From a bacterium UBA3756 (lineage in GTDB: Bacteria > Bacteroidota > Bacteroidia > Bacteroidales > Bacteroidaceae): a stretch of DNA of 64,000 nt. A model generated the notes under the pieces. It saw nothing but the letters and a program-made list of their open reading frames with translations, searched no databases and had not been told where the DNA came from. The position numbers were made by a program, and so were the translations under genes. The stretch is from NCBI GenBank assembly GCA_002371695.1, contig DFGG01000109.1, forward strand, positions 9,225-73,224, written 5' to 3'. Positions 5,727-49,329 of the stretch are shown here, piece by piece (the first letter of the stretch is position 1; every line of letters starts with the position of its first letter).

Positions 5727-5747
5727 AAACATAATAAACGATAAGAT

Positions 5748-34144: not shown

Positions 34145-35446
34145 TTATTTCTTGGTATTGATGACGAAAACACACGCTGCACCGATCAGGAAACTGACAC
34201 CAGCAACGATCATCATTGTAGATTGATGGTGACCCACCAGCGAGAGGATGGTACCGCCACAGATAGCAGCCACAATCTGGGGTACACAGATAGTACCATT
34301 AAACAGACCAAGGTAGGCCCCCATGTGTCCGTAGCCCTGCAGGGCATTCGTGACAAACGTAAAGGGCATGGCTAACATCGCTGCCCAACCGCAGCCAATG
34401 AGCAGGAAGGGTACAATCTGCCCGTACATATCGGGGATAAACGGAATGAGCAGGAATCCCAGGCCTCCCAGTATCAGACTGACGCTGTAAGCCAACTTCG
34501 TATTGCTAAAGCGTGGCAGCATCGCAGCCCAAGCAACAGAACCCATAGCCTGGATGGCATACAGCACACCCGTCCAGTTGGCTGCCTCCTGATAGGCATC
34601 TGTAGTAGGATCGATGGTGCCCCAGACGGTTTCTGACACAGCATCCACCACATAAGTCCACATATAAAGCATACCAGCCCAACAGAAGAACTGCACCAAG
34701 CCGACCTTCCAGAATGTGGAAGGCGCATTCTTTAGCAGGCTGATCCAATTGGCAGAGTCTTCTTTTTCTTCCGAAACGGGATTGTATTCCTTGTATTCCT
34801 GCGGATTCCACTCTTTAACCTTCATGGTGGTGTAGAGTACACAAAGGATGAGGATGGCCGCACCACAATAGAACGACCAGATAACTGAATCAGGCACTAC
34901 ACCCTCTGGGGCCACGTTCTTCAGTCCGATCCAAGTGAACACAAAGGGGAAAAGGAAACCTACCACCGAACCTGCATTACAGAGGAACGACTGAATAGAG
35001 TAGGCTTTGGCTTTCTGCTTCTCGTTGACCATATCGCCCACCAACATCTTGAAGGGCTGCATAGCCATGTTAATACTCGTATCGAGCAACATCAGGGCCA
35101 CCAGTCCGAAAATCAGGGCTGCACCCACCGCCATTCCGAATGAGCCGGCATTGGGCAACAAGCACATCACAGCCACAGCCACAGCAGCTCCTATAAATAA
35201 ATAAGGTACGCGACGACCGAAGCGGGTCCAAGTCTTATCACTTAGTGTACCTACAATTGGCTGTACCAGGATACCCATCAACGGGGGCAATATCCAGAAG
35301 AAGCTCAGAGAGTGAGGATCAGCACCCAGTGTGCGGAATATACGCGAGATATTTGCACTCTGTAAGGCATAGGCTATCTGTACGCCGAAGAACCCGAAAC
35401 TCAGGTTCCATAACTTCCAAAAGGAGAGATCTGGTTTTTGCTTCAT
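34145..35446 (-). CDS. MFS sugar transporter (SLC45/GPH-like, probably maltose or maltodextrin)
   Basis: A 433-residue inner-membrane protein with about 12 hydrophobic helices and no signal peptide. The N-terminal LSFWKLWNLSFGFFGVQIAY and the loop TLSDKTWTRFGRRVPYLF match the sugar-cation symporter branch that includes sucrose and maltose carriers. It is 33 bp downstream of the LacI-family regulator with no promoter between, and divergent from a starch-uptake operon, so import of maltose or short maltodextrins is the likely role. Substrate is inferred from context. Confidence 0.85.
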   Translation of the reverse strand: MKQKPDLSFWKLWNLSFGFFGVQIAYALQSANISRIFRTLGADPHSLSFFWILPPLMGILVQPIVGTLSDKTWTRFGRRVPYLFIGAAVAVAVMCLLPNAGSFGMAVGAALIFGLVALMLLDTSINMAMQPFKMLVGDMVNEKQKAKAYSIQSFLCNAGSVVGFLFPFVFTWIGLKNVAPEGVVPDSVIWSFYCGAAILILCVLYTTMKVKEWNPQEYKEYNPVSEEKEDSANWISLLKNAPSTFWKVGLVQFFCWAGMLYMWTYVVDAVSETVWGTIDPTTDAYQEAANWTGVLYAIQAMGSVAWAAMLPRFSNTKLAYSVSLILGGLGFLLIPFIPDMYGQIVPFLLIGCGWAAMLAMPFTFVTNALQGYGHMGAYLGLFNGTICVPQIVAAICGGTILSLVGHHQSTMMIVAGVSFLIGAACVFVINTKK

Positions 35447-35479: not shown

Positions 35480-36505
35480 TTATCGAGTTGTACCACGGAT
35501 AATCAGACGGGTACGGACTACACGCTTTTCAACCTTCTCCATAGGAGCCAGCCCTTCCACCTTGTCCATCAAGATTTCGGCAGCTTCCTCACCCACCCGA
35601 TGACCACGCTGCTCCACAGTAGTAAGCATCGGGTCACAGGCCACGGCCCGCTGTCCATTGGTAAAGCCACAGATGGAGATGTCTTCAGGCACCCGATAGC
35701 CGGCATGCTTCACGGTGTAGAGGATGCCGATGGCCGTATCATCGTTGACGGCGAAGAAAGCATCGGGCGGATTGTCGAGTGCCATCAGTTTTGGCGTGAT
35801 CACTTCCGCATCAGCCCGGTTATCGCAGACACCGATAATAGACTCATCGATTTTCATGCCATGCTTCAGAAGGGCATCCTTATAGCCATTATAGCGATTC
35901 TTCGAGATCTCGAGCTGCATCGGACTGCCGTAGAAGGCTATCCGCCTGCAACCGGTCTCAATCAGATGTGTCACGGCATTATAGGCGCCCATATAGTCAT
36001 CCACCACCACACGACTGGCGTTCACACCCGTACAGATACGGTCGTAGAACACCATGGGGATTCCGGCATCGAGTAATTTCTGATAGTGGTCGTAGTTCTT
36101 CGTGTCCTTAGCCTGAGAGACGATGACGCCGCACACCTTATAACGGTGGAAGTTTTCACAGATGCGAGCCTCCCGCTCATACTGTTCACCACTGAGTGCC
36201 ACCATGATACGGTAGCCACGCGCTGCCGCCGCCTCCTCGATACCCGTCAGGATAGACGAGAAATAGTAATGCGTAAACTCGGGCACGATGACACCGATGA
36301 CGCGCTGGGGCATCACCCGACTATGGCGGAGCGCCTCTCCAATGGCATTTGGGAAGAAGTTATGCTCACGGGCATACTGCTGGATGGCCCGTCGTCGCTC
36401 CTCGCTGATACGAGGCGAATCCTTAAGGGCACGAGACACCGTCGCTACAGAAATTCCGAACTCCCGAGCGATATCCTTCATTGTCATTGGTGCTTTCTCG
36501 TCCAT
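35480..36505 (-). CDS. LacI family transcriptional regulator of the starch locus
   Basis: A 341-residue DNA-binding regulator. The helix-turn-helix (about residues 7-30) contains MKDIAREFGISVATVSRAL and the hinge reads NAIGEALRHSR. A periplasmic-binding-like sugar domain follows (GVIVPEFTHYYFSSILTGIE, VVVDDYMGAYNAVTHLIETG, FFAVNDDTAIGIL). It is divergent from the SusC-F operon. The intergenic region carries a perfect LacI-type palindrome, TGCAAACGTTTGCA, and a second near-copy precedes the alpha-amylase gene at 47.5 kb. It most likely senses maltose or a derivative. Operator positions suggest it may activate rather than only repress. Confidence 0.92.
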   Translation of the reverse strand: MDEKAPMTMKDIAREFGISVATVSRALKDSPRISEERRRAIQQYAREHNFFPNAIGEALRHSRVMPQRVIGVIVPEFTHYYFSSILTGIEEAAAARGYRIMVALSGEQYEREARICENFHRYKVCGVIVSQAKDTKNYDHYQKLLDAGIPMVFYDRICTGVNASRVVVDDYMGAYNAVTHLIETGCRRIAFYGSPMQLEISKNRYNGYKDALLKHGMKIDESIIGVCDNRADAEVITPKLMALDNPPDAFFAVNDDTAIGILYTVKHAGYRVPEDISICGFTNGQRAVACDPMLTTVEQRGHRVGEEAAEILMDKVEGLAPMEKVEKRVVRTRLIIRGTTR

Positions 36506-36527: not shown

Positions 36528-36558
36528 CAAAGATACAAAAAACCTTTAGATATACAAA
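36528..36558 (-). promoter_or_regulatory. Promoter of the lacI-MFS operon
   Basis: The minus strand has TTTG (36555-36558), 19 bases, then TATCTTTG (36528-36535), a full -33/-7 consensus. The operator at 36591-36604 lies about 62 bp upstream of this -7 element. Confidence 0.7.
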
Positions 36559-36590: not shown

Positions 36591-36604
36591 TGCAAACGTT
36601 TGCA
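36591..36604. promoter_or_regulatory. LacI-family operator, perfect palindrome
   Basis: TGCAAACGTTTGCA is a perfect 14-bp palindrome with the central CG typical of LacI-family operators. It lies midway between the two divergent promoters: 68 bp from its first base to the -7 element of the SusC promoter, and nearly the same distance from the lacI -7 element. Confidence 0.85.
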
Positions 36605-36658
36605 CGGCAGAATTGTGTAATTTAATGCAAAAAAAGTACAACGTATCGAAATCTGCAC

Positions 36659-36666
36659 TATCTTTG
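36659..36666 (+). promoter_or_regulatory. -7 promoter element of the SusC-F amylase operon
   Basis: TATCTTTG is a perfect -7 element. At the -33 position (about 36635-36638) the sequence is AGTA, not TTTG, so the promoter may need an activator. The leader to the ATG is about 68 bases. Confidence 0.7.
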
Positions 36667-36737
36667 CAACGAAAACGAGAGCCTAAATAGCTGACAAACA
36701 ATATAACATATACAAAATTAACTCTAATTTAAACGTA

Positions 36738-39692
36738 ATGATGAAGCAGGTAAACATTCAAATCCCGCTAAGGATGCTAGGCCTTTTGCTAGGCTTATTC
36801 CTATCGGTAGGTGCCTTTGCCCAGATTGAGGTAAAAGGCCATGTGAAAGATGCTACAGGCGAACCCATTATCGGCGCAACTGTACGTGTGGACGGTACAC
36901 AGACGGCCACCGTATCTGATTTCGACGGTAACTTCGTGCTGAAAGCTAATCAGGGTGCAAACATTACCATTTCGTACGTCGGCTACCAGAACCAGACGGT
37001 CAAGGCAGCCCCCAACCTCGTGGTAACGTTGCAGGATGACGCACAGGTTCTGCAGGACGTTGTGGTTATCGGTTATGGAACCGTTCGAAAGAGCGATGCA
37101 ACCGGTTCGGTCATGTCGGTTGAAGCCGACCAGTTGAACAAGGGTTTAGCCACATCGCCAGCCGATCTGTTACAAGGTAAGACGCCAGGTGTGCAGATTA
37201 CCACCAACGGTGGTGCTCCTGGTGCAGGATCAACAATCCGCATCCGCGGCGGTTCGTCACTTTCAGCTTCTAACGACCCTCTGATTGTTATTGACGGTCT
37301 GCCCATTAGCTCCACAGGTATTTCTGGTGGTGACGTGCTAAATACCATTAACCCAAATGACATCGAGAGTTTCTCAATTCTGAAAGATGCATCTGCCACT
37401 GCCATCTATGGTAGCCGTGCTTCTAATGGTGTGATCTTGATTACCACTAAAAAAGGTAAGGCAGGGGCCAAGCCTCGCATTAATGTGGATATGAGTGGTA
37501 CTTTCAAGACCGTTGCCAAGAAAGTTGACGTATTGGATGCTGGTGCATTCCGCGATTTCTTTATGGCAAACTATGGCGATAACGCCGATGCTGTTGCTGC
37601 CCTGGGTAATGCTAATACCAACTGGCAGGACGAGATCTACCACAGCACTTTTGCTGAGGAAATCAACGCCAGCGTTACTGGTGGCTATGTTTCAAAGGGG
37701 GGCAACTTCAAAATGCCATACCGTGTAAGTGCAGGATTCCTGAACAACGAAGGTAACTTGAAGACCTCTAACATGAATCGTACCACTGTAGGATTCAACC
37801 TTACGCCGACTTTGCTTGACGATCGTCTGACCATCAACCTGAATGGTAAGGGCGTATTCTCTCACAACTCTTTTGCCGATGAAGGTGCGATTGGCGCAGC
37901 TGTACAGTACAACCCTCTGCAGCCAGTAAACAAGGCTGACGGCAGCTATTTCCGCTGGGAGAGCAATGGTGCACCTAACACGATGTCAACACTGAACCCT
38001 GTGGCAATGCTTTACGAGCAGAACAAGGATTCATACGTCCGCCGTTTCGTGGGTAACGCTCAGTTCGACTATAAGTTCAAGTTCCTTGATGGCCTGCGTG
38101 CCAACCTGAACCTGGGTCTCGATATCTCAACGACCTCTGGCTGGAATGTTACTGATAAGGGAAGCGAGATTTCCTATCACAACAAGACCGAAAACGGATC
38201 TGGTCTTTGGGAGAAATACACTCAGATGCGCCGTGACCAGACCTTGGAGTTCTATCTGGCATACGCAAGAGAACTGAAGGAGATCTACAGCCGTTTTGAC
38301 GTACTGGCCGGTTACAGCTGGCAGCACTTCTTCAACAAAACGACCGACTATAAAGTAGCCAATGACGGTAGCGGTAAGGAGTTCTCTACAACCCCGCTCT
38401 TCAAGACGGAAAGCTACCTCGTATCATTCTACGGACGTTTGAACTACACTTTAATGGACCGCTACCTCCTTACCTTCACACTTCGTGATGACGGTACATC
38501 ACGTTTCCAAAACAACAAGTGGGGTCTGTTCCCATCAGCAGCTCTGGCATGGCGTATCAGCGAAGAGCCATTCATGAAGAATGTGGATTGGCTTTCTAAC
38601 TTGAAGCTCCGTCTGGGTTATGGTATCACTGGTCAGCAGAATATCAACCAAGGTGACTATCCCTCAATCCCGACTTATCACACTAATCAGGCAGGTTCTC
38701 TCTATCAGTTTGGCAACACTGTCATTACCCCAATCACCCCGAAGGGCTATGCCGCTCAGATCAAGTGGGAGGAGACCTCAACCTATAACATCGGTTTGGA
38801 CTTTGGTTTCGCACGCAACCGCATCAATGGTAGCATTGATATTTACAAGCGCACGACAAAGGACCTGCTCAACAAGGTTCCTGTGGCAGCTGGTACAAAC
38901 CTTACCAACTATCTGCTGATGAACGTTGGCGATATGGAGAATAAGGGTATTGAGGGTGCACTGAACGTAGTGCCCATCGAGAAGAAGAATCTGCGCTGGG
39001 AAATCGGTGTAAACATTGCATACAACAAGAATAAGATTACCAAACTGACTGCCAGTGACGATCCCAGCTATCTGGGTGTTGAGACGGGTGGTATCTCAGG
39101 TGGTGTAGGTAACATGATCCAAATACAGCAGGTAGGAAACCCCATCAACTCTTTCTTCGTATTCCAGCAGGTTTACGACGAGAATGGCAAACCTCTTGAG
39201 GGTGTCTATGTGGATCGTAACCACGACGGACAGATTACCGATGACGACCGCTATGTTTACTACAAACCCGATGCAGACGTGAATATCGGACTGAACACTG
39301 AGCTTAGCTACAAGAAGTGGACACTCTCTGCATCATTCCGTTCAAGTCTTGGCAACTATGTATATAACAATGTGGCATCAAATACAGAGATGAAGGCCGA
39401 CATGTGGACCAACAACTTTATCTGCAACCGTGTGGCAACTGCTCCTTACAGCAACTTCTCACAGGCACAGTATAAGAGCGACTACTATGTTCAGAACGCT
39501 TCATTCCTGAAACTAGACAAGGTGACACTGGCATACAACATTGCACCTTGGGTACGTGTTAACTTTACCGCCCAGAATGTCTTCACCATCACCAACTATG
39601 ACGGTGTTGATCCTGAGGTTGCTGGTGGTATCGACAACAACATGTATCCCCGCTCACGCAACTTTATCGTAGGTGCAAGCTTTAACTTTTAA
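36738..39692 (+). CDS. SusC-like TonB-dependent transporter, starch/maltooligosaccharide locus
   Basis: A 984-residue outer-membrane transporter with signal peptide (about 1-30), regulatory domain (EVKGHVKDATGEPIIGATV), TonB-box region LQDVVVIGYGTVRKS, plug (RIRGGSSLSASNDPLIVIDG; SILKDASATAIYGSRASNGV) and barrel ending NFIVGASFNF. It opens an operon of SusC-SusD-SusE-SusF-amylase, the order of the Bacteroides starch system. Either of two adjacent ATG codons (36738, 36741) may start it. Regulation by the divergent LacI-family protein is inferred from the operator upstream. Confidence 0.96.
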   Translation: MMKQVNIQIPLRMLGLLLGLFLSVGAFAQIEVKGHVKDATGEPIIGATVRVDGTQTATVSDFDGNFVLKANQGANITISYVGYQNQTVKAAPNLVVTLQDDAQVLQDVVVIGYGTVRKSDATGSVMSVEADQLNKGLATSPADLLQGKTPGVQITTNGGAPGAGSTIRIRGGSSLSASNDPLIVIDGLPISSTGISGGDVLNTINPNDIESFSILKDASATAIYGSRASNGVILITTKKGKAGAKPRINVDMSGTFKTVAKKVDVLDAGAFRDFFMANYGDNADAVAALGNANTNWQDEIYHSTFAEEINASVTGGYVSKGGNFKMPYRVSAGFLNNEGNLKTSNMNRTTVGFNLTPTLLDDRLTINLNGKGVFSHNSFADEGAIGAAVQYNPLQPVNKADGSYFRWESNGAPNTMSTLNPVAMLYEQNKDSYVRRFVGNAQFDYKFKFLDGLRANLNLGLDISTTSGWNVTDKGSEISYHNKTENGSGLWEKYTQMRRDQTLEFYLAYARELKEIYSRFDVLAGYSWQHFFNKTTDYKVANDGSGKEFSTTPLFKTESYLVSFYGRLNYTLMDRYLLTFTLRDDGTSRFQNNKWGLFPSAALAWRISEEPFMKNVDWLSNLKLRLGYGITGQQNINQGDYPSIPTYHTNQAGSLYQFGNTVITPITPKGYAAQIKWEETSTYNIGLDFGFARNRINGSIDIYKRTTKDLLNKVPVAAGTNLTNYLLMNVGDMENKGIEGALNVVPIEKKNLRWEIGVNIAYNKNKITKLTASDDPSYLGVETGGISGGVGNMIQIQQVGNPINSFFVFQQVYDENGKPLEGVYVDRNHDGQITDDDRYVYYKPDADVNIGLNTELSYKKWTLSASFRSSLGNYVYNNVASNTEMKADMWTNNFICNRVATAPYSNFSQAQYKSDYYVQNASFLKLDKVTLAYNIAPWVRVNFTAQNVFTITNYDGVDPEVAGGIDNNMYPRSRNFIVGASFNF

Positions 39693-39711
39693 CAAATAGG
39701 AGGACAAGAAT

Positions 39712-41277
39712 ATGAAATTCAACATAAAGAAAAACGGAATTTATAGTTTTGCCTTTGCTACCGCCGTGTCGCTGACAGCATGTACGGGCGACCTCAATGT
39801 CACCCCCATCGACCCCAATCTCGACACGCCGGAGAACGTACTCACAGGTACTGAGGCATACAACCAAATGTTGGCAAAATGCTACTCAGGTCTTTCGGTA
39901 AGCTCGCCCGACGGCGATAGCGGAAGCCCTGATATCGAAGGTATTGACGGCGGTTTTGGCCAGTATCTGCGTGCCCTGTTCAACTTGCAGGAGCTACCCA
40001 CAGACGAGGCTGTTATCGGTTGGAACGACCAGACACTGAAGGATCTTCACGGACTGCAGTGGACCTCAAGCGACGTGTTCGTAAGTGCTTGTTACAGCCG
40101 CATATTCTATCAGATCTCAATCTGTAATGAGGTTATCCGCCAGATTGACAAGTCAGGCAGCAATGACGCGCTTATGCAACAGTATCGCGCTGAGGCTCGT
40201 GCCATTCGCGGACTAAGTTATTTGCATGCCATAGACCTTTTCGGCAACGTACCTTTTACAGATGAGAACTCTTCAGTAGGAGGTGATAACCCTCAGCAGA
40301 TAAGTCGTGCAGAACTGTTCACCTGGATGGTAAAGGACATGGAAGGGGCGGCTGAAATCCTGCCCGCTAATCCTGAGAAATATCGCGCTGGAAAGGGTCT
40401 GTGCTATATGATTCTTGCAAAGCTTTATCTGAATGCCAAGATTTATACAGGTTCAGAAAACTACCAGAAATGTGCAGAGTACTGCCAAAAGATTATCGAC
40501 TTGGGCTACAAGCTGGAGAGTGCAAACGACTATTGGAAGCTCTTCTGCGCCGACAACGACCAGATGCTGGGCGTAGGCCATGAGATTATCTTCAGCGTAT
40601 ATCAGGACCATATCAACACTCAGGCATACGGTGGTACGACCTATATCATCAACGCCGAGGTGGGCGGTAACATGTCATACGCAGATTATGGACTTGGCGG
40701 AAACGGTTGGGGCGGTATTCGCGTAACACCACAATTCGTCGATAAGTTTGAGGAAGGTGACCAGCGTGGTACATTCTTCACCAATGGCCAGTCTAAGGAA
40801 ATCGTGGATATTAGCGACTTCTTCAGTGGTTATGCATTTACTAAGTTCACCAACTTGAAGGCCGACCGTAGCGTTCTGCCCGATGCAAACTCTTTCCCCG
40901 ACACCGACTTCCCCGTCTTCCGTCTGGGTGACGTCTATCTGATGATGGCTGAGTGCGAGGTTCTTGGTGGTGTCAGCTGCGGTGGTGTTGAAAAGTTCAA
41001 CGCTATCCGTGAGCGTGCAGGCGTTGCTCCAATTGCAAGCCCCAACAAGAATGATATCATCAACGAGCGTGCCCGTGAATTGGCTTGGGAGTGTCACCGT
41101 CGTAGCGACCTTGTACGCTTCGGATTGCTTACCACTGGCGATTATCTGTGGTCACATAAGGGTATGAACAGCAACGTTGGTACTCCTCATGCAGTAGATA
41201 ACAAGTATAATCTGTTCCCACTGGCTTCAAGCGATGTTATTTCGAACACCAACCTGATTCAGAATTCAGGCTATTAA
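39712..41277 (+). CDS. SusD-like starch-binding outer-membrane lipoprotein
   Basis: A 521-residue lipoprotein with the lipobox AVSLTAC before TGDLNVTPID. SusD features include YRAEARAIRGLSYLHAIDLFG and FRLGDVYLMMAECEVLGG, and the C-terminal NERARELAWECHRRSDLVRF. It follows SusC by 19 bp and precedes the SusE-like gene by 34 bp. Together with SusC it should capture maltooligosaccharides for import. Confidence 0.95.
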   Translation: MKFNIKKNGIYSFAFATAVSLTACTGDLNVTPIDPNLDTPENVLTGTEAYNQMLAKCYSGLSVSSPDGDSGSPDIEGIDGGFGQYLRALFNLQELPTDEAVIGWNDQTLKDLHGLQWTSSDVFVSACYSRIFYQISICNEVIRQIDKSGSNDALMQQYRAEARAIRGLSYLHAIDLFGNVPFTDENSSVGGDNPQQISRAELFTWMVKDMEGAAEILPANPEKYRAGKGLCYMILAKLYLNAKIYTGSENYQKCAEYCQKIIDLGYKLESANDYWKLFCADNDQMLGVGHEIIFSVYQDHINTQAYGGTTYIINAEVGGNMSYADYGLGGNGWGGIRVTPQFVDKFEEGDQRGTFFTNGQSKEIVDISDFFSGYAFTKFTNLKADRSVLPDANSFPDTDFPVFRLGDVYLMMAECEVLGGVSCGGVEKFNAIRERAGVAPIASPNKNDIINERARELAWECHRRSDLVRFGLLTTGDYLWSHKGMNSNVGTPHAVDNKYNLFPLASSDVISNTNLIQNSGY

Positions 41278-41311
41278 TTCTTTTAGCAGATAATAAAAAA
41301 AGATAAGTGAT

Positions 41312-42214
41312 ATGAAAACAAAATATTTCAAGAGTAGCGTGTTGTTCGCTGTTTTTGCCATGCTGTTTGCGGCATGCGATTCTGACCGCGACGACAATCC
41401 CAAGCTCGGCCCGAATCACACCGCTAAGACTTTTGTGGTGAACACATCGGCTGTGGCAGATCAGTATATCCAGCTTTCTCCAGAGAATACTGTCAATCTG
41501 ACTTGGAGCCAACCCGACTACGGCGTTAATACTGTAGTAAACTATAAGGTTCAAGTAGGTCTGAAAGAGAATGGTACTGAAAAATGGGGTGAATTTCTGG
41601 AGTCAAGCTTCACCTCATGCAATGTGAACCTCAGTGGCGAAGATATCGCAAAGATCCTCTGCAAACTCGACGGCTTCAAAACCGAGGATGACTATGTAGA
41701 TAAGGGGTTCCGCGAGGTTATCATGCGTGTCACAGCAAATATCCAGACCACGACCTCACAGGAGGTTGAGGGAACCAGCATCACCTCGAACACTGTCAGC
41801 TTCAAGCATATGGCTGCCTATTGTAACATCCCGACCAAGGGCACACTCTACGTCATCGGATCTTGCTGTGGCTGGCCCGAGCCTTCTTCTGGCAACAAGC
41901 AGACGCTGATCGACGGTGGATGGTACATCACGGAAACCGAAATTGGAAGCAAAGTCTATAATGGTATTGTTGAAATGCCAGAAGGTGATCTGACCTTCCG
42001 CTTCTATGCGAAGCTTACTGGTTGGGACGGTGGCGATTCCTACGGATTCCAGGTTGATGACGTAGCTACAGAGATTACCCTAACCAATAATGTATATAGC
42101 GGCAAGGGTATGACCGGTAAGGGTTCTTGGACAATCAATGGGTTCCCTGGCGGAAAGATGGAGCTTACTGTTGACATGAATAAGAACACCGTTAAGTTCG
42201 AGCTTCTCAATTAA
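41312..42214 (+). CDS. SusE-like starch-binding outer-membrane lipoprotein
   Basis: A 300-residue lipoprotein with lipobox MLFAAC and a strongly acidic start, DSDRDDN, as in surface-exposed Bacteroidota lipoproteins. An N-terminal SusE-type immunoglobulin-like domain (about 40-165; VNLTWSQPDYG, NYKVQVGL) is followed by one starch-binding module (about 175-300; TLYVIGSCCGWPEPSS, LTFRFYAKLTGWDGG). It is shorter than Bacteroides SusE, with one binding module instead of several. It should hold starch at the surface next to SusC/D. Confidence 0.88.
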   Translation: MKTKYFKSSVLFAVFAMLFAACDSDRDDNPKLGPNHTAKTFVVNTSAVADQYIQLSPENTVNLTWSQPDYGVNTVVNYKVQVGLKENGTEKWGEFLESSFTSCNVNLSGEDIAKILCKLDGFKTEDDYVDKGFREVIMRVTANIQTTTSQEVEGTSITSNTVSFKHMAAYCNIPTKGTLYVIGSCCGWPEPSSGNKQTLIDGGWYITETEIGSKVYNGIVEMPEGDLTFRFYAKLTGWDGGDSYGFQVDDVATEITLTNNVYSGKGMTGKGSWTINGFPGGKMELTVDMNKNTVKFELLN

Positions 42215-42245
42215 TTCATCCGTAATAGAATGATCGTATAATCAA

Positions 42246-44102
42246 ATGAAAAAGAAGATGAAAAAAGTTAGTTTATATATCATGGCTCTGCTCAGCACTG
42301 GACTCGTATCCTGCAACCAGGACTTCGAGACCATCTTCAGCCCGCAGACCAATGCGCAAGAAAGCCTGCTTCAGGCTAGCGATGTCACTGTGGCTAATAC
42401 GACGCCCACTTCCATCAACCTTGCAGATTATATTGATGAAGCTGCCGGCACCACAAAGGCTATTCCCATCGGTACTGCAACTGTGAAAGAAGGCGCTATG
42501 CCAGCCAATACCATCCTAAAGGCTCAAGTGGAGTTCTCTAAGGATGCCGACTTCTCAAGCTCGATTATGCTGAATGCCAATAGCCTTGACGGTTCTAACG
42601 AGATTAGTGTCAACCCTAATCTATTGCAAGACAGCTATTTCAATGAGATTACCCGCAATCCGGCAACCACCGACCTGTATATCCGCACGGTTCTCTATAC
42701 CGTTACTGGAGGTACATCTGATGCTATCGTAGGCAAGCCCGGTGAGAACTACTATGCTGAGAGCAAAGTGCAGTTCACTCCGCTGAACAAGGTACAGATT
42801 TCTCCGGCATATTATATCATTGGCGGTCCTAACGACTGGGCTGGCTCGGCTGCTGAGAAGCCCATCAAGTTCAACCACAGTGGTGCCGATGTCTACGAGG
42901 ATCCTATCTTCACGGTTGTATTCGATGCTGCTGCCGAGGGTGACACCTGGTTTGCTATCGGTGACGACGAGGCTTGCGACGCTATCGGAGCCGGTGACTG
43001 GACCAAACTGTTCGGTATCGTAGGCGGTGACAGCCAGGCTAAGGAAGGTCGTCTCGACTACCGTTACAACCTGGGTGCCGACAACTCGTTCTGCGTACCT
43101 GCCGGAGCCAAGAAGATCAAGGTAACCATCGATATGATGAGCTACACCTTCAAGGTAGAGCCCGTAAGCATTGCTGATGCCTACTACCTCATCGGTGGTC
43201 CTGGTGAGTGGAGCGCAGAGTCAGCCATGACCATGCAGTTCTCTCACAGCAGCGCTGACGTATTTGCCGATCCTATCTTCACCTATGTCTTCGAGGGCAA
43301 TGGTGGCGAGGGCGACATGTGGTTCGCTTTCGGTGATAAGGATGCTATTGATGCAGTTGCTGCCGGCGATTGGACACAGCTGTACGGTACAACCGTAGAG
43401 AGCACTGACCTGAGCGGCGGTATCGACCGTCGTTACAACCTCGGTGGCGACCACTCATTCTGCGTCGACGGCAAGGCTAAGTTCTTCCGCTTCCAGATCA
43501 ACATGGCCGAGATGACTTATACCATCACACCACTGAACTTCGCCGAGTACATCTGGCAGGCAGGTAACGGCAATGGTTGGGGTAGCCCCGCTGCTCCGCT
43601 CTACGGCCCTGCTGGCGACGGTCTGTACACAGGTTACATGTATCTCGACGGTGAATTCAAGTTCCGTAGCGGCGAGGACAACTGGAATGCTCCTGACTGG
43701 GGTATCGGTGCCGGCGGCGAGGGCACACTCGCTGAGCAGGCTGGAAACCTCAATGCAGCAGCAGGCTACTATAAGGTCAATGTCGATCTTGGAGCTCTCA
43801 CCTATACTCTCACACCAATTACCACGATTGGCATCGTAGGTCCTGCACAATCAGGTGGCTGGAGTGATGACACGGATATGGCCTACAACCCCAAAACAGG
43901 TGCCTGGGAGGCAACCATCGAACTGGCAGCCGACGAGTTGAAGTTCCGTGCGAACGACGACTGGGCTATCAATTGGGGTGGTACAACAGACAATCTGACT
44001 CAGGGTGGCTCGAACTTGAAGATTGCTGAGGCTGGCACCTACTTCATCCAGCTCTTCGCATTCTGCGACTCTAAGGCTTATTGCAAGCTCGAAAAGAAAT
44101 AA
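42246..44102 (+). CDS. SusF-like starch-binding lipoprotein with four modules
   Basis: A 618-residue lipoprotein (lipobox LVSC at residue 23). An N-terminal domain (about 45-180) is followed by two homologous modules of about 115 residues. Each begins AYYxIGGPxxW and contains a DxWFAxGD segment and an RYNLG segment. Two further SusF-type modules follow (about 428-520 and 522-618), with FKFRSGEDNWNAPDWG and LKFRANDDWAINWGG. The repeated aromatic pattern fits several starch-binding surfaces. It is followed by a hairpin before the amylase gene. A downstream in-frame ATG at 42258 is an alternative start. Confidence 0.88.
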   Translation: MKKKMKKVSLYIMALLSTGLVSCNQDFETIFSPQTNAQESLLQASDVTVANTTPTSINLADYIDEAAGTTKAIPIGTATVKEGAMPANTILKAQVEFSKDADFSSSIMLNANSLDGSNEISVNPNLLQDSYFNEITRNPATTDLYIRTVLYTVTGGTSDAIVGKPGENYYAESKVQFTPLNKVQISPAYYIIGGPNDWAGSAAEKPIKFNHSGADVYEDPIFTVVFDAAAEGDTWFAIGDDEACDAIGAGDWTKLFGIVGGDSQAKEGRLDYRYNLGADNSFCVPAGAKKIKVTIDMMSYTFKVEPVSIADAYYLIGGPGEWSAESAMTMQFSHSSADVFADPIFTYVFEGNGGEGDMWFAFGDKDAIDAVAAGDWTQLYGTTVESTDLSGGIDRRYNLGGDHSFCVDGKAKFFRFQINMAEMTYTITPLNFAEYIWQAGNGNGWGSPAAPLYGPAGDGLYTGYMYLDGEFKFRSGEDNWNAPDWGIGAGGEGTLAEQAGNLNAAAGYYKVNVDLGALTYTLTPITTIGIVGPAQSGGWSDDTDMAYNPKTGAWEATIELAADELKFRANDDWAINWGGTTDNLTQGGSNLKIAEAGTYFIQLFAFCDSKAYCKLEKK

Positions 44103-44118
44103 GCACTTTCAATCATCC

Positions 44119-44160
44119 ATCAGGCGGATCGCTTATCGCAACGGTCCGCCTGATTTTATT
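44119..44160 (+). terminator. Terminator or attenuator between SusF-like gene and amylase
   Basis: A perfect 10-bp stem (ATCAGGCGGA at 44119-44128 with its complement at 44145-44154) followed by TTTTATTTC. No -7 element follows before the amylase ATG at 44183, so it probably acts as a partial terminator that lowers amylase expression. A near-copy lies at 45548-45575. Confidence 0.75.
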
Positions 44161-44182
44161 TCAACCCTATATTTCCCGCATT

Positions 44183-45511
44183 ATGAAGAAACTCCTTTTA
44201 TGCATCAGCATTGCGGCAGCTGTGATCTCCTGCAAGCCTGCAAAAGAAACGAAACAGACGGCATTCGAGATGCCTGCAGTAGCAGACATTGCTATGTATC
44301 AGGTGAACCCTCGTGTGTTTGCACCTGACCATTCATTGAATGCCGTAGCAGCCCGTATCGATTCCATCCGCGACCTTGGCGTCAACGTGATGTGGGTGAT
44401 GCCCATCTACCCCATCGGTATCGAGAAAGGCAAGAACTCCCCCTACTGCATCAGCGACTACAAGGCCATCGCCCCTGAGTTTGGTACCATTGACGATTTC
44501 AAGAACCTTGCAAAGGTCTGTCACGAGCACGGCATGGGTATCATTCTAGACTGGGTGGCTAACCACACGGCCTGGGATCATCCCTGGGTGAAAGAGCATC
44601 CAGACTGGTACACTCACGACGAGAAGACTGATACCATCATCCATCCACGCCCCTGGGACTGGTACGACGTGGCTGACCTGAACTATGATAATAAGGACAT
44701 GCGCGCAGCTATGATTGACGCCATGAAGTTCTGGATCGTTGAGGTAGGCATCGACGGTTTCCGCTGCGATGTGGCCGACGGTGTGCCTGCCGACTTCTGG
44801 AAGGATGCCATCAATGAACTACGCACTGCTGCCGGCAACCGCCAGATTGTGATGCTGGCCGAGGGTAAGCGTTCAGACAACTTCACCGTTGGCGGCTTCG
44901 ACATGAACTATGGCTGGGACTATAAGGACGAACTGGTGAAGGTATGGAAGGGGGCTCCCGTTTCCGACCTCATCAAGGCTGATAAAGCTGAATACGACAG
45001 TCTGCCTGCAGGCAAGGTCAAGATGCGTTTCACAACCAACCACGACCACTCCACCGAGGCCACACCCTGTCAAGAGTTCACCAACGACCGTGGTGCAATG
45101 GCTGCCTATGTAGCCACCATCTTCCCCCATGGTGGGGCCCTCATCTACAGTTCTCAGGAGGTAGGCTACCCCGAGCCCATCAATTTCTTCAAGTTCGTAC
45201 CCGTAGACTGGACCGCCAAGCCCGAGATCTACAAGGAATACCAAACGCTAATCAAGCTATACAACGAGCATCCTGCATTACGCAAAGGCAAGATGACAGC
45301 TTATCCTGACAAGGATGTGCTTGTGTTTGAGAAGACTGATGCTGCTGAACGCTTCCTGGTGCTCGCCAATGTGAGGAATGAACCCAAGACCATCAAAGTG
45401 CCAGAGAACTGGGTTGGACATGAGACTGATGATGAGGTTACTGGTCAGCACATCAAACTGGAAGCCAACTTCGAACTGTCTCCATTCCAGTATCTGATCT
45501 TAGCATATTAA
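44183..45511 (+). CDS. GH13 alpha-amylase family lipoprotein, SusG-like
   Basis: A 442-residue surface lipoprotein: leader MKKLLLCISIAAAVIS with Cys17 of the lipobox. The (beta/alpha)8 amylase regions are visible: region I DWVANHTAWDH, region II GIDGFRCDVADGVP (nucleophile Asp), region III MLAEGKRSD (acid Glu), region IV FTTNHDHS (transition-state Asp). It is shorter than Bacteroides SusG (about 690 residues), with no inserted starch-binding module. It should cut starch at the surface for the SusC/D importer. The start was placed at 44183 because it begins the lipoprotein signal; longer frames run into the hairpin. Confidence 0.9.
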   Translation: MKKLLLCISIAAAVISCKPAKETKQTAFEMPAVADIAMYQVNPRVFAPDHSLNAVAARIDSIRDLGVNVMWVMPIYPIGIEKGKNSPYCISDYKAIAPEFGTIDDFKNLAKVCHEHGMGIILDWVANHTAWDHPWVKEHPDWYTHDEKTDTIIHPRPWDWYDVADLNYDNKDMRAAMIDAMKFWIVEVGIDGFRCDVADGVPADFWKDAINELRTAAGNRQIVMLAEGKRSDNFTVGGFDMNYGWDYKDELVKVWKGAPVSDLIKADKAEYDSLPAGKVKMRFTTNHDHSTEATPCQEFTNDRGAMAAYVATIFPHGGALIYSSQEVGYPEPINFFKFVPVDWTAKPEIYKEYQTLIKLYNEHPALRKGKMTAYPDKDVLVFEKTDAAERFLVLANVRNEPKTIKVPENWVGHETDDEVTGQHIKLEANFELSPFQYLILAY

Positions 45512-45547
45512 AGAGAAACCTATCTTTTCTTAAACTAAAATGAGGCG

Positions 45548-45575
45548 GGCGGATTATCAAAACGGTCCGCCTTTT
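45548..45575 (+). terminator. Terminator of the SusC-F amylase operon
   Basis: A 6-bp stem GGCGGA/TCCGCC (45548-45553 with 45566-45571) followed by TTTT. The sequence from the stem through AACGGTCCGCCT nearly repeats that of the hairpin at 44119-44154. Confidence 0.75.
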
Positions 45576-45894
45576 AATTCATAGCAAAAAATTATATAGA
45601 AATTTTTATTTCCTAACTTCGGCGGTTTTAACATTTCAGAGAGGTTGACTCGATTGAAATCCTTATAAGCAGGAAATTCTGCATGGTAACTTGGGTGACT
45701 CAGGAAATTTGTGTTCCTTTACGGTATGTCCCCATGCAAGAAGACTTACAGGACAGGTATCAATTGACTTTGCCCAAAGTACTTTATGTTGCTAGACTTA
45801 AAGAGTAAATATTCTTCAAAAATAATCAGTTTTCATGTCAATTTGAAGAATGGACACTGATAATTGATTCTAAAGAAAGTTTCAATTTTAGTAC
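45576..45894. other. AT-rich intergenic stretch without a recognisable gene
   Basis: About 320 bp between the operon terminator and the dyad-rich region. The longest sensible frame (ATG at 45683 to the stop at 45808, 41 codons) has no ribosome site or promoter I can defend and no recognisable motif. I see no tRNA, insertion sequence or operator here. It could be decayed sequence. Confidence 0.5.
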
Positions 45895-46225
45895 AAAGTA
45901 TCACTATTCAACTTAACTAACAGATAATAAGCGTGTTAGATATAGTGATACTTTTTCTTGAAGTGTCACTACTATTTTGTAATGGCAAAACAACTTGTTT
46001 TGCTGTGTAAAGTGGCACTTATTCAGTGTATAGAGGCACTTTCCTTCATACCAAAACAACTTGTTTTACTTTTTTAGCAGATAACTCTTTATGCCAAAGC
46101 CTGCAACCTTTATTGCGCTCCCTATGTCTATTAATCCGAGAAAATGGTATATGATTTGTCTCTATATGTTGACAAATTTCAAAATAGTGATACTTAGTGT
46201 AACTTTTTTGCAAAGTGTCACCTCA
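45895..46225. repeat. Cluster of short degenerate inverted repeats upstream of the GH53 gene
   Basis: A perfect 13-bp inverted repeat (AAAGTATCACTAT at 45895-45907, complement at 45942-45954) with an inner CTAAC/GTTAG pair. Other copies of a core like AGTGnCACT occur at 45962 (AGTGTCACT), 46010-46020 (AAGTGGCACTT), 46033 (GAGGCACTT), 46186 (AGTGATACT) and 46214 (AGTGTCACC). AAAACAACTTGTTTT occurs twice, at 45987-46001 (within a 19-bp palindrome 45985-46003) and at 46053-46067. Function unknown; it ends about 50 bp before the GH53 promoter. Confidence 0.7.
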
Positions 46226-46249
46226 CAAAGGTCTTTACATATAGAATCC

Positions 46250-46280
46250 TTGCATATCTAAAGTATTATTTGTATTTTTG
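46250..46280 (+). promoter_or_regulatory. Promoter of the GH53 galactanase gene
   Basis: TTG (46250-46252), 20 bases, then TATTTTTG (46273-46280). This contains the TTG at 46270 that could be taken as a start, so translation begins at the ATG at 46306. Confidence 0.6.
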
Positions 46281-46305
46281 CAGCGTTATTACAAAGATCA
46301 AACAT

Positions 46306-47412
46306 ATGTCTAACAGAAAATGCTTAATGATGTTATTGGCGGTAATGGCATTTACTGCCAATGCACAAACCAAGAAGTATCTTGGCGGAGATGCTTCCCT
46401 GCTACCGTCGTATCAGGAAAAAGGAACGGTCTATAAAGATTTTAATGGTCACAAGATCAAATTTCTGCCATTTGTCAAGCAACAGGGATGGAACATGATT
46501 CGCGTCCGGCTCTTCGTGGACCCGCAGAATGCACCTGAAGGACATAAGGGCGAAGGAGTCTGCCAAGATCTGAATTATGTCATAGGTCTATGCCAGCAGA
46601 TCAAGAAAACCGGTATGCAGGTGATGCTCGATTTCCACTACAGCGACACCTGGGCTGATCCTGGCAAGCAGTTCACGCCAAAACGCTGGGAAGGCTGCAA
46701 CAAGCAACAGCTTGCCGACAGTGTCTATGCCTACACTCGTGCTTCGCTACAAGCGATGAAACGAGCTGGCATCGTGCCAGAGATGATACAGGTAGGCAAT
46801 GAGATAACCAACGGCATGCTCTGGCCGACAGGCAAGATTGACCCATCAGGCAGTGAGGGGTTTGATATCTTATGTAACTTCCTCAAGGCTGGTTGTAAGG
46901 CATGTCGTGAGATATGTCCGAAATCACAGATTATTATCCATACGGAAAAGACTGGCGACTGGAATATCACCCGAAACTATTACCAACAGCTTCGATACCG
47001 TCAGGTTGATTACGATATCATCGGACTCAGTTACTACCCCATGTGGCAAGGCACCATCCCCAATCTCGGTCATACGCTCGACAAGCTAAACTGGCTCTTC
47101 CCTGAAAAGCCCGTGATGATTGTGGAAACCGCCGCCTATTATAGTCATGAGCGCGACCCTTGGGCCAAGGGCGACCAATATGCGGAGTTCTATCCTATCA
47201 GCGTGGAGGGGCAGACTCAGTTCACCCGCGAACTTGTGACGGAATTAAACAAACACCACAATGTGACAGGACTCTTCTGGTGGTTCCCTGAGGAAAATGG
47301 CTTCGGCAATGAGGTGACAAAGGGCTGGCTGAACCGTGGGCTTTTCGACAATCACACAGGCAAAACACTCCCAGCCATGAAAGAATTCAGTCGATTCGTC
47401 CGAAAACCGTGA
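46306..47412 (+). CDS. GH53 family endo-beta-1,4-galactanase
   Basis: A 368-residue secreted enzyme; the signal peptide ends near AFTANAQ. GH53 features are GGDASLLPSYQEKG near the start, MIRVRLFVDP, MLDFHYSDTWADPGKQ, the acid/base Glu in QVGNEITNGMLWP, and the nucleophile Glu in MIVETAAYYS. It should cut the beta-1,4-galactan of type I arabinogalactan or pectin. It stands alone between two starch-type transcription units with its own promoter and terminator, and no galactan SusC/D pair is nearby. Confidence 0.92.
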   Translation: MSNRKCLMMLLAVMAFTANAQTKKYLGGDASLLPSYQEKGTVYKDFNGHKIKFLPFVKQQGWNMIRVRLFVDPQNAPEGHKGEGVCQDLNYVIGLCQQIKKTGMQVMLDFHYSDTWADPGKQFTPKRWEGCNKQQLADSVYAYTRASLQAMKRAGIVPEMIQVGNEITNGMLWPTGKIDPSGSEGFDILCNFLKAGCKACREICPKSQIIIHTEKTGDWNITRNYYQQLRYRQVDYDIIGLSYYPMWQGTIPNLGHTLDKLNWLFPEKPVMIVETAAYYSHERDPWAKGDQYAEFYPISVEGQTQFTRELVTELNKHHNVTGLFWWFPEENGFGNEVTKGWLNRGLFDNHTGKTLPAMKEFSRFVRKP

Positions 47413-47430
47413 GTGGTTTACATGCAAGCG

Positions 47431-47444
47431 TGCAACCGTTTGCG
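47431..47444. promoter_or_regulatory. LacI-family operator (imperfect) upstream of the tagged alpha-amylase
   Basis: TGCAACCGTTTGCG matches 12 of 14 positions of the operator at 36591-36604. Its first base is 68 bp from the -7 element at 47499, exactly the spacing seen at the SusC promoter, so I assign it to the same LacI-family regulator. Confidence 0.7.
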
Positions 47445-47466
47445 CAATGCAACTAACAGTTTTTTA

Positions 47467-47496
47467 GCCACTTGGGAACAACCAAGCGGCTTTTTT
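47467..47496 (+). terminator. Terminator of the GH53 gene
   Basis: Stem GCC-A-CTTGG (47467-47475) with CCAAG-C-GGC (47482-47490), a 6-base loop, then six T. It sits between the LacI operator and the -7 element of the next gene. Confidence 0.75.
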
Positions 47497-47498
47497 CT

Positions 47499-47506
47499 TA
47501 TCTTTG
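47499..47506 (+). promoter_or_regulatory. -7 promoter element of the tagged alpha-amylase gene
   Basis: TATCTTTG starts 2 bp after the T-run of the GH53 terminator. There is no TTTG at the -33 position, which is occupied by the terminator stem. Confidence 0.7.
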
Positions 47507-47541: not shown

Positions 47542-49329
47542 ATGAGAAAACTCTACTCAACACTTATCCTGTCACTCGTATCAATAGTCTCAATGGCTCA
47601 GGGTTGGCCAAAAGATTATAATGGTGTGATGCTTCAGGGATTCTATTGGGACTCTTTTGCCGACACCCAGTGGACACGTTTGGAGAAACAAGCTGATGAT
47701 CTCTCGAAGGTGTTCGATCTGGTATGGATTCCACAGAGCGGCAACTGCGGCGGTATGTCAATGGGCTACGATGATCTTTATTGGTTTGAGAATTATAACA
47801 GTTCTTTCGGCACTGAAGAAGATCTGCGCTCCATGATCAAGACCTTCAAGGAAAAAGGCATCGGAACCATCGCTGACGTGGTGATAAACCATCGCAAGGA
47901 ACTTAAAAACTGGGTGGAATTCCCAGAAGAGACCTATAAGGACGTAACCTATCGCATGACCTCCGAAGATGTCTGTTCCGACGATGAAGCGGCAGGAAAA
48001 GGCTATCAGTTAAGTAAGAATAAGGACACTGGTGAGAAATGGGATGGTATGCGCGACCTAGACCATAAGAGCGAGAACGTGCAGACCATCGTGAAGGCTT
48101 ATCTGAATTTCCTACTTAACGACCTGGGCTATACGGGATTCCGCTATGATATGGTGAAAGGCTATAGTGCTTCGTATACCAAGATGTATAATGAAGACTC
48201 GAAACCTCAGTTCTCTGTAGGTGAGTGCTGGGATAGCAGCAATACCATCAAGAACTGGATTGACGGTACAGGAAAGACCAGTACAGCCTTTGATTTCCAG
48301 TTCCGCTATACGGTTCGCAACGCCATTAATAGAGGCGACTGGACCTATCTGGACAAACAGAATGATGGTAATTGGCCATTAGTTAGCAAGAACTACCAAG
48401 ATGGTAGCTATCGTCAGTATGCTGTGACCTTTGTTGAGAACCATGATACTGAGAAACGTGCCAAAGCTGATCAGGACCCTATCAAAAAAGACACATTGGC
48501 AGCAAACGCCTATATGCTGGCTATGCCCGGCACTCCTTGTGTGTTCCTGACCCACTGGAAAGCTTATAGGCAGGAAATTGCCAATATGATAACCGTGCGC
48601 AAGGCTGTGGGTATCACCAATACGAGTGCTACGACAAATGTGGCATCGAACAAAGACTACTATGCTGTGGAGACAACAGGCACCAAAGGCAAACTGCTCG
48701 CTGTAGTGGGCACAAAGGCCGCAGGCTATACGCCTGATGGTGATTGGAAAAAAGCTATCAGCGGTTATCACTACGTCTATTACGTCAGCGGTATCGACCC
48801 TGCCAACATCAAATATCCAGAGATAAATACTGAGGAAGAAGAGGACGGCAAATATGCAGGTGTGCCTGCATTCTGCACGATGGAAGAGGGCGAGAGATGT
48901 TCATTCTTCGAAGCACCTGTATCATGGGGCAGCCAGATATTTGTATGGGCCTGGATGAACGGTGGCAAGGGCGAGGACTATCTTGGCACAAGCTGGCCCG
49001 GCGTGACAGCCACCAAACTAGGCACAGCCGACAATGGTAACAGCGTGTGGAAGTGGAAAGTGTCTGGCGCAGTCAATCCCGACTTCATCATATTTAGCGG
49101 TGGAGGCGTGCAGACTGAAAACTTGAAATTCACCAATGGCGGCTACTACTTTGGTAACGAGGGTTTGAAAGCTACGGTGACACCTACGGCTATCCGCAAC
49201 ATAGACGTAACTGACCAAAATACTGAATATGCCGTCTTCGACCTTCAGGGACGTAAGGTAGGTACGACCAAAAGTCCTTTGAAGAGCGGCATCTATATCG
49301 TCAACGGGAAAAAGTTCGTGATGAAGTGA
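47542..49329 (+). CDS. Secreted GH13 alpha-amylase with starch-binding module and type IX sorting tail
   Basis: A 595-residue enzyme with a signal peptide ending near IVSMAQ. The amylase barrel (about 25-400) has region I DVVINHRK, nucleophile Asp in GFRYDMVKGY, acid Glu in SVGECWDSS and region IV FVENHDTEKR. A starch-binding module of CBM26 type follows (about 460-545; IFVWAWMNGGKGEDYLG, SWPGVTATKLG). The last 40 residues (YAVFDLQGRKVGTT, LKSGIYIVNGKKFVMK) match a type A type IX sorting domain, so it should pass through the PorU/PorV system to the surface or medium. LacI-type operator and -7 element precede it, linking it to the SusC-F operon. Confidence 0.92.
   Translation: MRKLYSTLILSLVSIVSMAQGWPKDYNGVMLQGFYWDSFADTQWTRLEKQADDLSKVFDLVWIPQSGNCGGMSMGYDDLYWFENYNSSFGTEEDLRSMIKTFKEKGIGTIADVVINHRKELKNWVEFPEETYKDVTYRMTSEDVCSDDEAAGKGYQLSKNKDTGEKWDGMRDLDHKSENVQTIVKAYLNFLLNDLGYTGFRYDMVKGYSASYTKMYNEDSKPQFSVGECWDSSNTIKNWIDGTGKTSTAFDFQFRYTVRNAINRGDWTYLDKQNDGNWPLVSKNYQDGSYRQYAVTFVENHDTEKRAKADQDPIKKDTLAANAYMLAMPGTPCVFLTHWKAYRQEIANMITVRKAVGITNTSATTNVASNKDYYAVETTGTKGKLLAVVGTKAAGYTPDGDWKKAISGYHYVYYVSGIDPANIKYPEINTEEEEDGKYAGVPAFCTMEEGERCSFFEAPVSWGSQIFVWAWMNGGKGEDYLGTSWPGVTATKLGTADNGNSVWKWKVSGAVNPDFIIFSGGGVQTENLKFTNGGYYFGNEGLKATVTPTAIRNIDVTDQNTEYAVFDLQGRKVGTTKSPLKSGIYIVNGKKFVMK

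Follow-up and report, generated by a model that had tools for sequence, protein, structure and literature searches.

We analysed a 64,000-nucleotide stretch of Bacteroidales DNA (hereafter, the window) in which the gene for a LacI-family regulator lies next to a starch-type locus. Comparison with related genomes indicated that this LacI-family protein (35480-36505) is very probably a class I-type activator of a starch/maltodextrin regulon. The initial annotation of the window had proposed that the protein activates starch genes, and the comparison supports this proposal by way of fixed spacing between operators and promoters, absent -33 boxes, and diverged spacers. The elements on which the argument relies are as follows.

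35480-36505, minus strand: lacI, encoding a LacI-family regulator of 341 amino acids, the proposed activator (PF00356 helix-turn-helix and PF13377 sugar-binding domain)
36528-36535, minus strand: -7 element TATCTTTG of lacI, 69 bp from operator 1 on its own strand
36555-36558, minus strand: -33 element TTTG of the lacI promoter
36591-36604, no strand: operator 1, the perfect 14-bp palindrome TGCAAACGTTTGCA, common to the divergent susC and lacI promoters
36629-36645, plus strand: conserved A-tract and GTACAACGTA stretch, at the would-be -33 place of the sus promoter
36659-36666, plus strand: TATCTTTG, -7 element for the sus operon; distance to operator 1, 68 bp
47431-47444, no strand: operator 2, TGCAACCGTTTGCG
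47466-47496, plus strand: intrinsic terminator-like hairpin and T-run (-14.7 kcal/mol), in the spacer that separates operator 2 from the following -7 element
47499-47506, plus strand: TATCTTTG, -7 element for the second GH13 gene; distance to operator 2, 68 bp

Both operators lie 68 bp ahead of TATCTTTG (36591 to 36659 and 47431 to 47499; first base to first base), as had been noted initially, which leaves 54 bp between operator and -7 element. TTTG was indeed absent 22-25 nt before the -7 element at both downstream promoters (sus and second GH13), and the lacI promoter does have a -33 element, with TTTG 23 nt upstream of TATCTTTG on the minus strand. The distance of about 62 bp originally given between operator 1 and the lacI -7 element holds when measured from operator centre to element; from first base to first base it is 69 bp, so that operator 1 is nearly symmetric between its two promoters. 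The sequence TGCAAACGTTTGCA is palindromic with a central CG, as is typical of LacI/GalR operators (a predicted site), and it neither overlaps nor follows the promoter as in LacI-repressor architecture. Operator 2 (TGCAACCGTTTGCG), located before the last GH13 gene, is a two-mismatch copy of TGCAAACGTTTGCA; matches with up to three mismatches numbered 4 in the window vs. 3.44 expected, and operator 2 is not significant alone. When all TAnnTTT[GA] elements of the window were tested, only these two operators scored at least 12/14 at 67-70 bp. The runner-up had 9/14, and nothing at five shifted control spacings exceeded that value. The significance of the arrangement stems mainly from related genomes and not from the window.

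To this end, 110 LacI-orthologue loci were gathered (30 + 80, with some genomes in both sets; n = 111 with the window), and up to 600 bp upstream of lacI were examined per locus. An operator with no more than two mismatches was found in 97/111 of the lacI upstream regions, window included. The 14 operator-free regions were those of L040, L051, L055, L058, L068, L071, L075, L080, L094, L096, L006, L109, L110, and L029; the regions of L096 and L006 stop at 86 bp, and those of L110 and L029 hold a three-mismatch copy with a -7 element at 69 and 68 bp, respectively. Deduplication (stricter pattern, identical segments dropped) yielded 91 operators facing susC, of which 85 had TAnnTTTG on the susC side at 68 bp (59 operators) or 69 bp (26 operators), where the background for this element was <0.1 match per position. 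The six exceptions were L015, L034 (spacer and -7 element gone, with coding sequence coming next), L067 (cut off by the end of its contig), an additional site of L027, and two sites of L100, one of which has its -7 element at 68 bp, past the 600-bp limit. Variable spacing at orthologous promoters, named at the outset as evidence that would speak against activation, was looked for and not seen in the family: distances were mostly 68 or 69 bp at susC, GH13, GH77, and lacI-MFS promoters despite diverged spacers.

The same distance recurred at other promoters. We compiled 69 operator sites away from lacI, drawn from the second set of 80 orthologue loci (up to 17 kb in length), from 47 of the genome-scan sites listed (lacI-side sites and one contig-edge site left out), and from the window. 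TAnnTTTG was found at 67-70 bp in one direction at 47/69 of these sites; L155, counted among them, is in fact the sus-lacI site of genome G022, broken up over contigs. Promoters L109 and L161 resemble those of sus. At 13 further sites the -7 element carried one mismatch (TAnnTTTA or TAnnTTCG), and its distance was always 68 or 69 bp. Genes downstream of the other sites included GH13 enzymes, and CBM20-GH77 glucanotransferases made up 9/10 of the scanned unlabelled targets (the tenth, L164, was without family). We then scanned 151 genomes of the family with no gene-based selection, allowing a gap of 40-70 bases (distances of 54-84 bp). This returned 94 matches in 35/151 genomes, many of them two promoters on one operator, of which 85 fell at 67-70 bp (46 at 68, 30 at 69, 6 at 70, and 3 at 67), none at 60-66 bp, and 9 elsewhere; the reversed control pattern gave no match in the same 151 genomes. 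A match at 67-70 bp was present in all 8 genera that had any match. Genus g26 has the site at 68/69 bp both at susC and at the lacI-MFS pair (its LacI is 53-54% identical), and GH53-side distances, where visible, were 68 and 71 bp.

It could be argued that constant spacing merely reflects the common ancestry of slowly changing promoters and not a selected distance. The loci are mostly of one genus, orthologous sus promoters are related (mean spacer identity of 0.56), and the sus promoters of the window (36629-36645) and its relatives keep an A-tract with GTAYAACGTA in their -33 region. This stretch is no consensus of the other promoters of the regulon, whose spacers were mutually as unlike as shuffled sus spacers (mean identity of 0.43 vs. 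0.45) with their length still fixed. Moreover, the standard deviation of spacer length was 0.46, vs. 29 for the interval from the -7 element to the susC ATG and 27 for that from the lacI ATG to the operator. The distance is also shared by non-homologous genes and by every matching genus. Given the spacer divergence and the non-homologous promoters, we discarded common descent as the reason for the fixed spacing and regard it as scarcely credible; the data support selection on spacer length and not on spacer sequence. A possible second, degenerate operator (TAATAACGnnTTTA) 20 bp downstream of operator 1 was noticed by eye in several sus spacers and was not seen in the window.

With regard to what the spacer may contain, hairpins of -14 kcal/mol or stronger were predicted in 17/48 spacers of the other promoters, nearly all of these with a T-rich run just before the -7 element. 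Thirteen of the 17 appear to be relatives of one GH77 promoter, and operator 2 of the window (hairpin proper at 47466-47491) is among the rest. A regulated promoter can thus house the terminator of the gene that precedes it. A role of this terminator as an attenuator of its own transcript was rejected, since it lies upstream of the -7 element and thus outside the downstream transcript.

Poor -33 boxes, first remarked on at the two promoters of the window, proved general at operator promoters. TTTG occurred 22-25 nt before the -7 element in 0/85 sus and 2/48 other promoters, compared with 17/105 controls (operator-free promoters of the same loci) and 8/81 operator-linked lacI promoters. Fisher p-values against the controls were 3.4e-5 (sus), 0.037 (other), and 0.28 (lacI), and these are optimistic, to the detriment of our argument, because related loci are not independent.

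The lacI promoter of the window, noted initially to have a -33 element, could be taken as a contrast that works independently of the operator. This reading did not survive the comparison and we dropped it: the lacI-side -7 element was located 67-71 bp from the operator in 81/91 loci, and TTTG stood at -33 in just 8/81. Positive autoregulation of lacI would, on these two counts, be as likely as an independent lacI promoter. Four closely similar loci had the lacI-side element at 78 bp, one turn further, and the remaining distances were 60, 32, 31, 39, 50, and 100 bp. A variant of activation, in which a dual regulator activates sus and the enzyme genes and either represses lacI or leaves it to its own -33/-7 promoter, is rather unlikely in our estimation. 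It would account for TTTG at -33 in the window and for a distant relative (L030/L199) whose lacI-side -7 element is at 32 bp, a repressor-like place, with the sus side at 68 bp. It sits poorly with the activator distance on the lacI side in most loci, with the scarcity of TTTG there, and with the four loci that are displaced by one turn.

Genomes with unlinked lacI bear on the same question. In eight genomes (two Xylanibacter ruminicola, the rest Prevotella/Prevotellaceae), lacI-MFS had no adjoining sus operon. These genomes held 26 operator sites; 17 of the 20 examined had a -7 element at 68/69 bp, and the sus sites, from seven of the eight genomes, were all at 68 bp. Their lacI promoters carried no operator. 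Among nine operator-free lacI promoters with a -7 element (L109 added, its lacI being away from the site), TTTG was found at 23 nt in four and at 26-27 nt in four, with none in L075. TTTG at the -33 position was thus present in 4 of 9 such promoters vs. 8/81 at 22-25 nt in those with an operator (p = 0.016, the genomes being close kin). The activator site and the -33 element seem, in this comparison, to replace one another. In two of these genomes, an operator-like CGCAAACGTTTGCA was also observed with TAACTTTG at 32 bp, before a 229-amino-acid open reading frame (L221 at 1001 and L222 at 930), in a repressor-like layout.

A lower-identity LacI paralogue offered a second view of the same geometry. 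We examined 31 upstream regions of lower-identity LacI homologues (L233-L254 and L256-L264), of which 14 contained [CT]GCAAACGTTT[AG]CG. The paralogue's own -7 element was at 31 or 32 bp in 14/14, so that its operator covers the -33 region and (at 32 bp) even supplies TTTG 24 nt before the -7 element, as a repressor site would. Divergent -7 elements were at 57/58 bp in nine of the 14, at 67/68 bp in three, and unrecognised in two. L254 had a variant site at 56 and 64 bp, L261 had one at 23 and 31 bp, and the other 15 regions had no such site with a -7 element in place. Distances of 58 and 68 bp are one helical turn apart.

At 12 loci, the divergent promoter of the paralogue leads not to any recognised gene but to a conserved small RNA of ~95 nt, in which no long open reading frame was recognised (L244 [G001:C32], L234, L235, L236, L239, L241, L242, L243, L245, L249, L250, and L251). 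Its layout is a core, GAGTAATGAATAGTTGATAATAAGTTAGTTAGAA, followed by a hairpin and then a T-run; the first bases of the core differ in L241. The exact core was found in 9/151 genomes of the family (8/15 of genus g1 and one in g170), and searches of seven loci against Rfam gave no match.

Since paralogues have a similar CGCAAACGTTTACG-like site, the operators described here could be bound by another LacI paralogue and not by the adjacent LacI. Genome G027, which is without an orthologue, keeps two sites at 67 bp, one of them beside a paralogue. We nonetheless give this little credence, considering that the site is found upstream of lacI itself in most loci and follows the orthologue across genomes: the operator pattern was detected in 30/30 scanned genomes with LacI or a near homologue (28 genus genomes with an orthologue, plus G055 and G057) vs. 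1/7 genus genomes without an orthologue (those seven being 50-90% complete). Binding by the adjacent LacI is suggested by this co-occurrence.

Members of the LacI family are known chiefly as repressors, and some of the homologues listed carry the word repressor in their source names. Both points count against activation and would suit an ordinary LacI-family repressor that is released on maltose binding, with the upstream position of its site simply tolerated; the paralogue operator over the -33 region shows that such a geometry exists in the same genomes. Repression at this distance would be odd. The operator covers neither the -33 nor the -7 element at sus, GH13, GH77, and most lacI promoters, and looping to a second site would be needed, yet most lacI upstream regions hold a single operator copy. 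Spacing fixed to one base would be needless for a repressor, and promoters under repression should presumably keep the -33 element that is missing here. We therefore consider ordinary repression improbable.

Both traits expected of class I activation were found: an upstream site at a fixed helical position (85/94 at 67-70 bp; for the paralogue, 57/58 in nine and 67/68 in three of 14) and a weak or absent upstream element at the target promoters. Fixed distance, one-turn steps, a missing -33 element, and a free spacer together fit an activator that contacts polymerase. Under this proposal, a LacI dimer would bind TGCAAACGTTTGCA, with its centre ~61.5 bp before the -7 element and on one helix face, and would help RNA polymerase, probably touching it from upstream in class I fashion, to use promoters whose -7 element is not accompanied by a -33 element. 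The regulon would comprise the sus operon, GH13 amylases, the CBM20-GH77 glucanotransferase in relatives, and probably the lacI-MFS operon itself; judging from these genes, maltose or a maltodextrin may be the activating signal. That this protein binds the site, contacts polymerase, and activates, and which signal molecule it answers to, we infer from sequence comparison. If the first T of TAnnTTTG lies near -11 relative to the transcription start, the operator centre would be at about -72.5, and at about -62.5 and -82.5 for sites at 58 and 78 bp.

Taken further, and with confidence only a little better than even, the data point to a class of Bacteroidales LacI-family activators that read distance and not spacer sequence. 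The operator would stand 58, 68, or 78 bp before TAnnTTTG, in one-turn steps, with nearly any filler in between, including an upstream terminator, so that operator, terminator, and promoter make up one compact module. In evolution, the operator and the -33 element would be able to take each other's place, and the paralogue would drive its conserved small RNA by the same geometry while its own -33 region falls under the same operator.

Several observations weigh against the proposed activation by this LacI and call for caution. Nine of the 69 sites away from lacI misfit: L159 and L174 precede LacI paralogues, L092 is a second copy of a site already included, and L087, L096, L166, L171, L178, and L180 are without explanation. 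Three examined sites in the genomes with unlinked lacI (L220, L221, and L222) likewise had no -7 element at 68/69 bp. Outside the family, the order-level scan gave 15 matches, with 7 at 67-69, 3 at 58, and 5 at 71-79 bp; among 11 order-level LacI homologue loci (L188-L198), L189 had the element at 58, L192 at 70 (lacI side), and L188 at 25 bp, and the rest had none in place. In a class-level search of 247 genomes, 10 had a LacI homologue at E ≤1e-75. The 68-bp arrangement occurred in G137 (another genus of the same family) and in G057 (L199, family f22), and not in the seven loci of family f42, where operator-like sequence occurred in five and TAnnTTTG at 68 bp in none. The spacing rule is looser or unseen beyond the family. 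For one locus of Flavobacterium IR1, transposon mutants of susC, lacI23, and malY are described as losing the response in the same way, a shared phenotype that fits activation, although the lacI23 insertion may be polar on malY (PMC9131120, section 2.3).

The genes surrounding the operators in the window are as follows.

34145-35446, minus strand: MFS/GPH-type sugar transporter (PF07690, PF13347), 33 bp downstream of lacI
36738-39692, plus strand: SusC-like TonB-dependent transporter
39712-41277, plus strand: SusD-like protein (domain search)
41312-42214, plus strand: SusE-like protein (domain search)
42246-44102, plus strand: SusF/SusE-like protein (domain search)
44081-45511, plus strand: GH13 alpha-amylase-family enzyme, start codon uncertain
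46270-47412, plus strand: GH53 family protein, the gene directly before operator 2
47542-49329, plus strand: second GH13 alpha-amylase, with a CBM26 match just below the Pfam cut-off

The lacI and MFS genes, which probably form one operon and whose adjacency recurs in relatives, diverge from a starch-type locus of susC, susD, susE, susF, GH13, and GH53, followed by the separate GH13 gene. The closest relatives of the window are rumen Prevotella, and the closest named locus is RUG108 (LacI 96% identical). The regulator has the N-terminal helix-turn-helix and periplasmic-binding-protein-like sugar domain of LacI/GalR proteins (PF00356 and PF13377/PF00532 above cut-off). LacI-type domains fill residues 8-53 and 69-340, and, judged by this domain coverage, the protein is not a membrane-anchored sensor with a periplasmic domain of the SusR type. 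No NCBIfam score for the named subfamilies CytR, MalI, CcpA, Cra, and RbsR exceeded its curated cut-off; CytR was best (201.9 vs. 436), and the names MalI (121.5 vs. 310) and CcpA (145.5 vs. 442) were rejected along with it.

A GH53 gene (endo-galactanase family) inside the window's starch locus (46270-47412) has counterparts near LacI operators in three loci of genus g26: L291 at 4123-5310 and L292 at 3632-4804 (called with Pfam), and L293 at 8348-9361 (by similarity only). In L291 (genome G450), a hybrid two-component regulator gene (5458-9165) separates the LacI operator from the GH53 gene, and two regulators may share this locus.

The proposed activator pattern appears, from these comparisons, to hold in rumen Prevotella and related gut bacteria. 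If true, a fixed and sequence-free distance would let LacI-family regulons be predicted and signed as activated (58/68/78 bp) or repressed (32 bp). It would also explain the induction of starch genes without SusR, which is relevant both to starch fermentation in the rumen and to SusR-free Bacteroides of the gut, and would suggest a simple way to design inducible promoters for the phylum.

Among known systems, class I CRP promoters of E. coli have the activator at about -61.5, -72.5, or -82.5 and a poor -35 element. Converted to start-site coordinates, the 58, 68, and 78 bp sites described here would fall at nearly these positions; the protein family, sigma factor, and promoter consensus differ, and for LacI the polymerase contact is a prediction. 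In B. fragilis, OsuR is reportedly a maltose-dependent activator of the starch operon osuABCD (Spence et al. 2006). In both B. fragilis and B. uniformis, the predicted sus loci contain predicted LacI-type regulators, MFS transporters, and GH65s, with no SusR homologue (PMC11633381). They thus resemble the window, and the initial suggestion that a LacI-type regulator stands in place of SusR agrees with them and is thereby partly in print already; unlike here, operator, spacing, and mechanism are not described in the portions of that paper at hand. SusR of B. thetaiotaomicron activates sus genes when starch is present (PMC3878776), similar to the proposed role of LacI, whereas SusR-like motifs are direct repeats and the LacI site is a palindrome, with LacI-type domains over the whole protein. 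According to PMC11784079, starch does not support growth of Segatella copri DSM18205; LacI is mentioned once in the available text, for a pectin locus. The uronate regulators KdgR, UxaR, UxuR, and UxmR of Bacteroides are named in the accessible parts of two papers (PMC4052901, a survey of LacI regulons, and PMC3878776), which contain no such starch activator.

A LacI activator at fixed distance in Bacteroidota, nested terminators, and exchange of an operator for a -33 element were not recognised in the accessible parts of the open-licence literature. LacI-family activation of maltodextrin genes as such is known already: MdxR of E. faecium is a LacI-family activator needed for their expression, according to a mutant transcriptome (PMC3737153). 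MdxR shares with our regulator the family and the tie to maltodextrin genes and differs in its Gram-positive host and promoter type; the main text of that paper, as available, gives no distance and does not use the terms binding site, operator, or promoter. For the LacI-type AraQ/MalR1 of Bifidobacterium breve, compared with CcpA, upstream sites suggest activation and helical phasing in the parts of the study at hand (PMC6882875). Those sites are not at one distance, whereas the distance described here is fixed to about one base.

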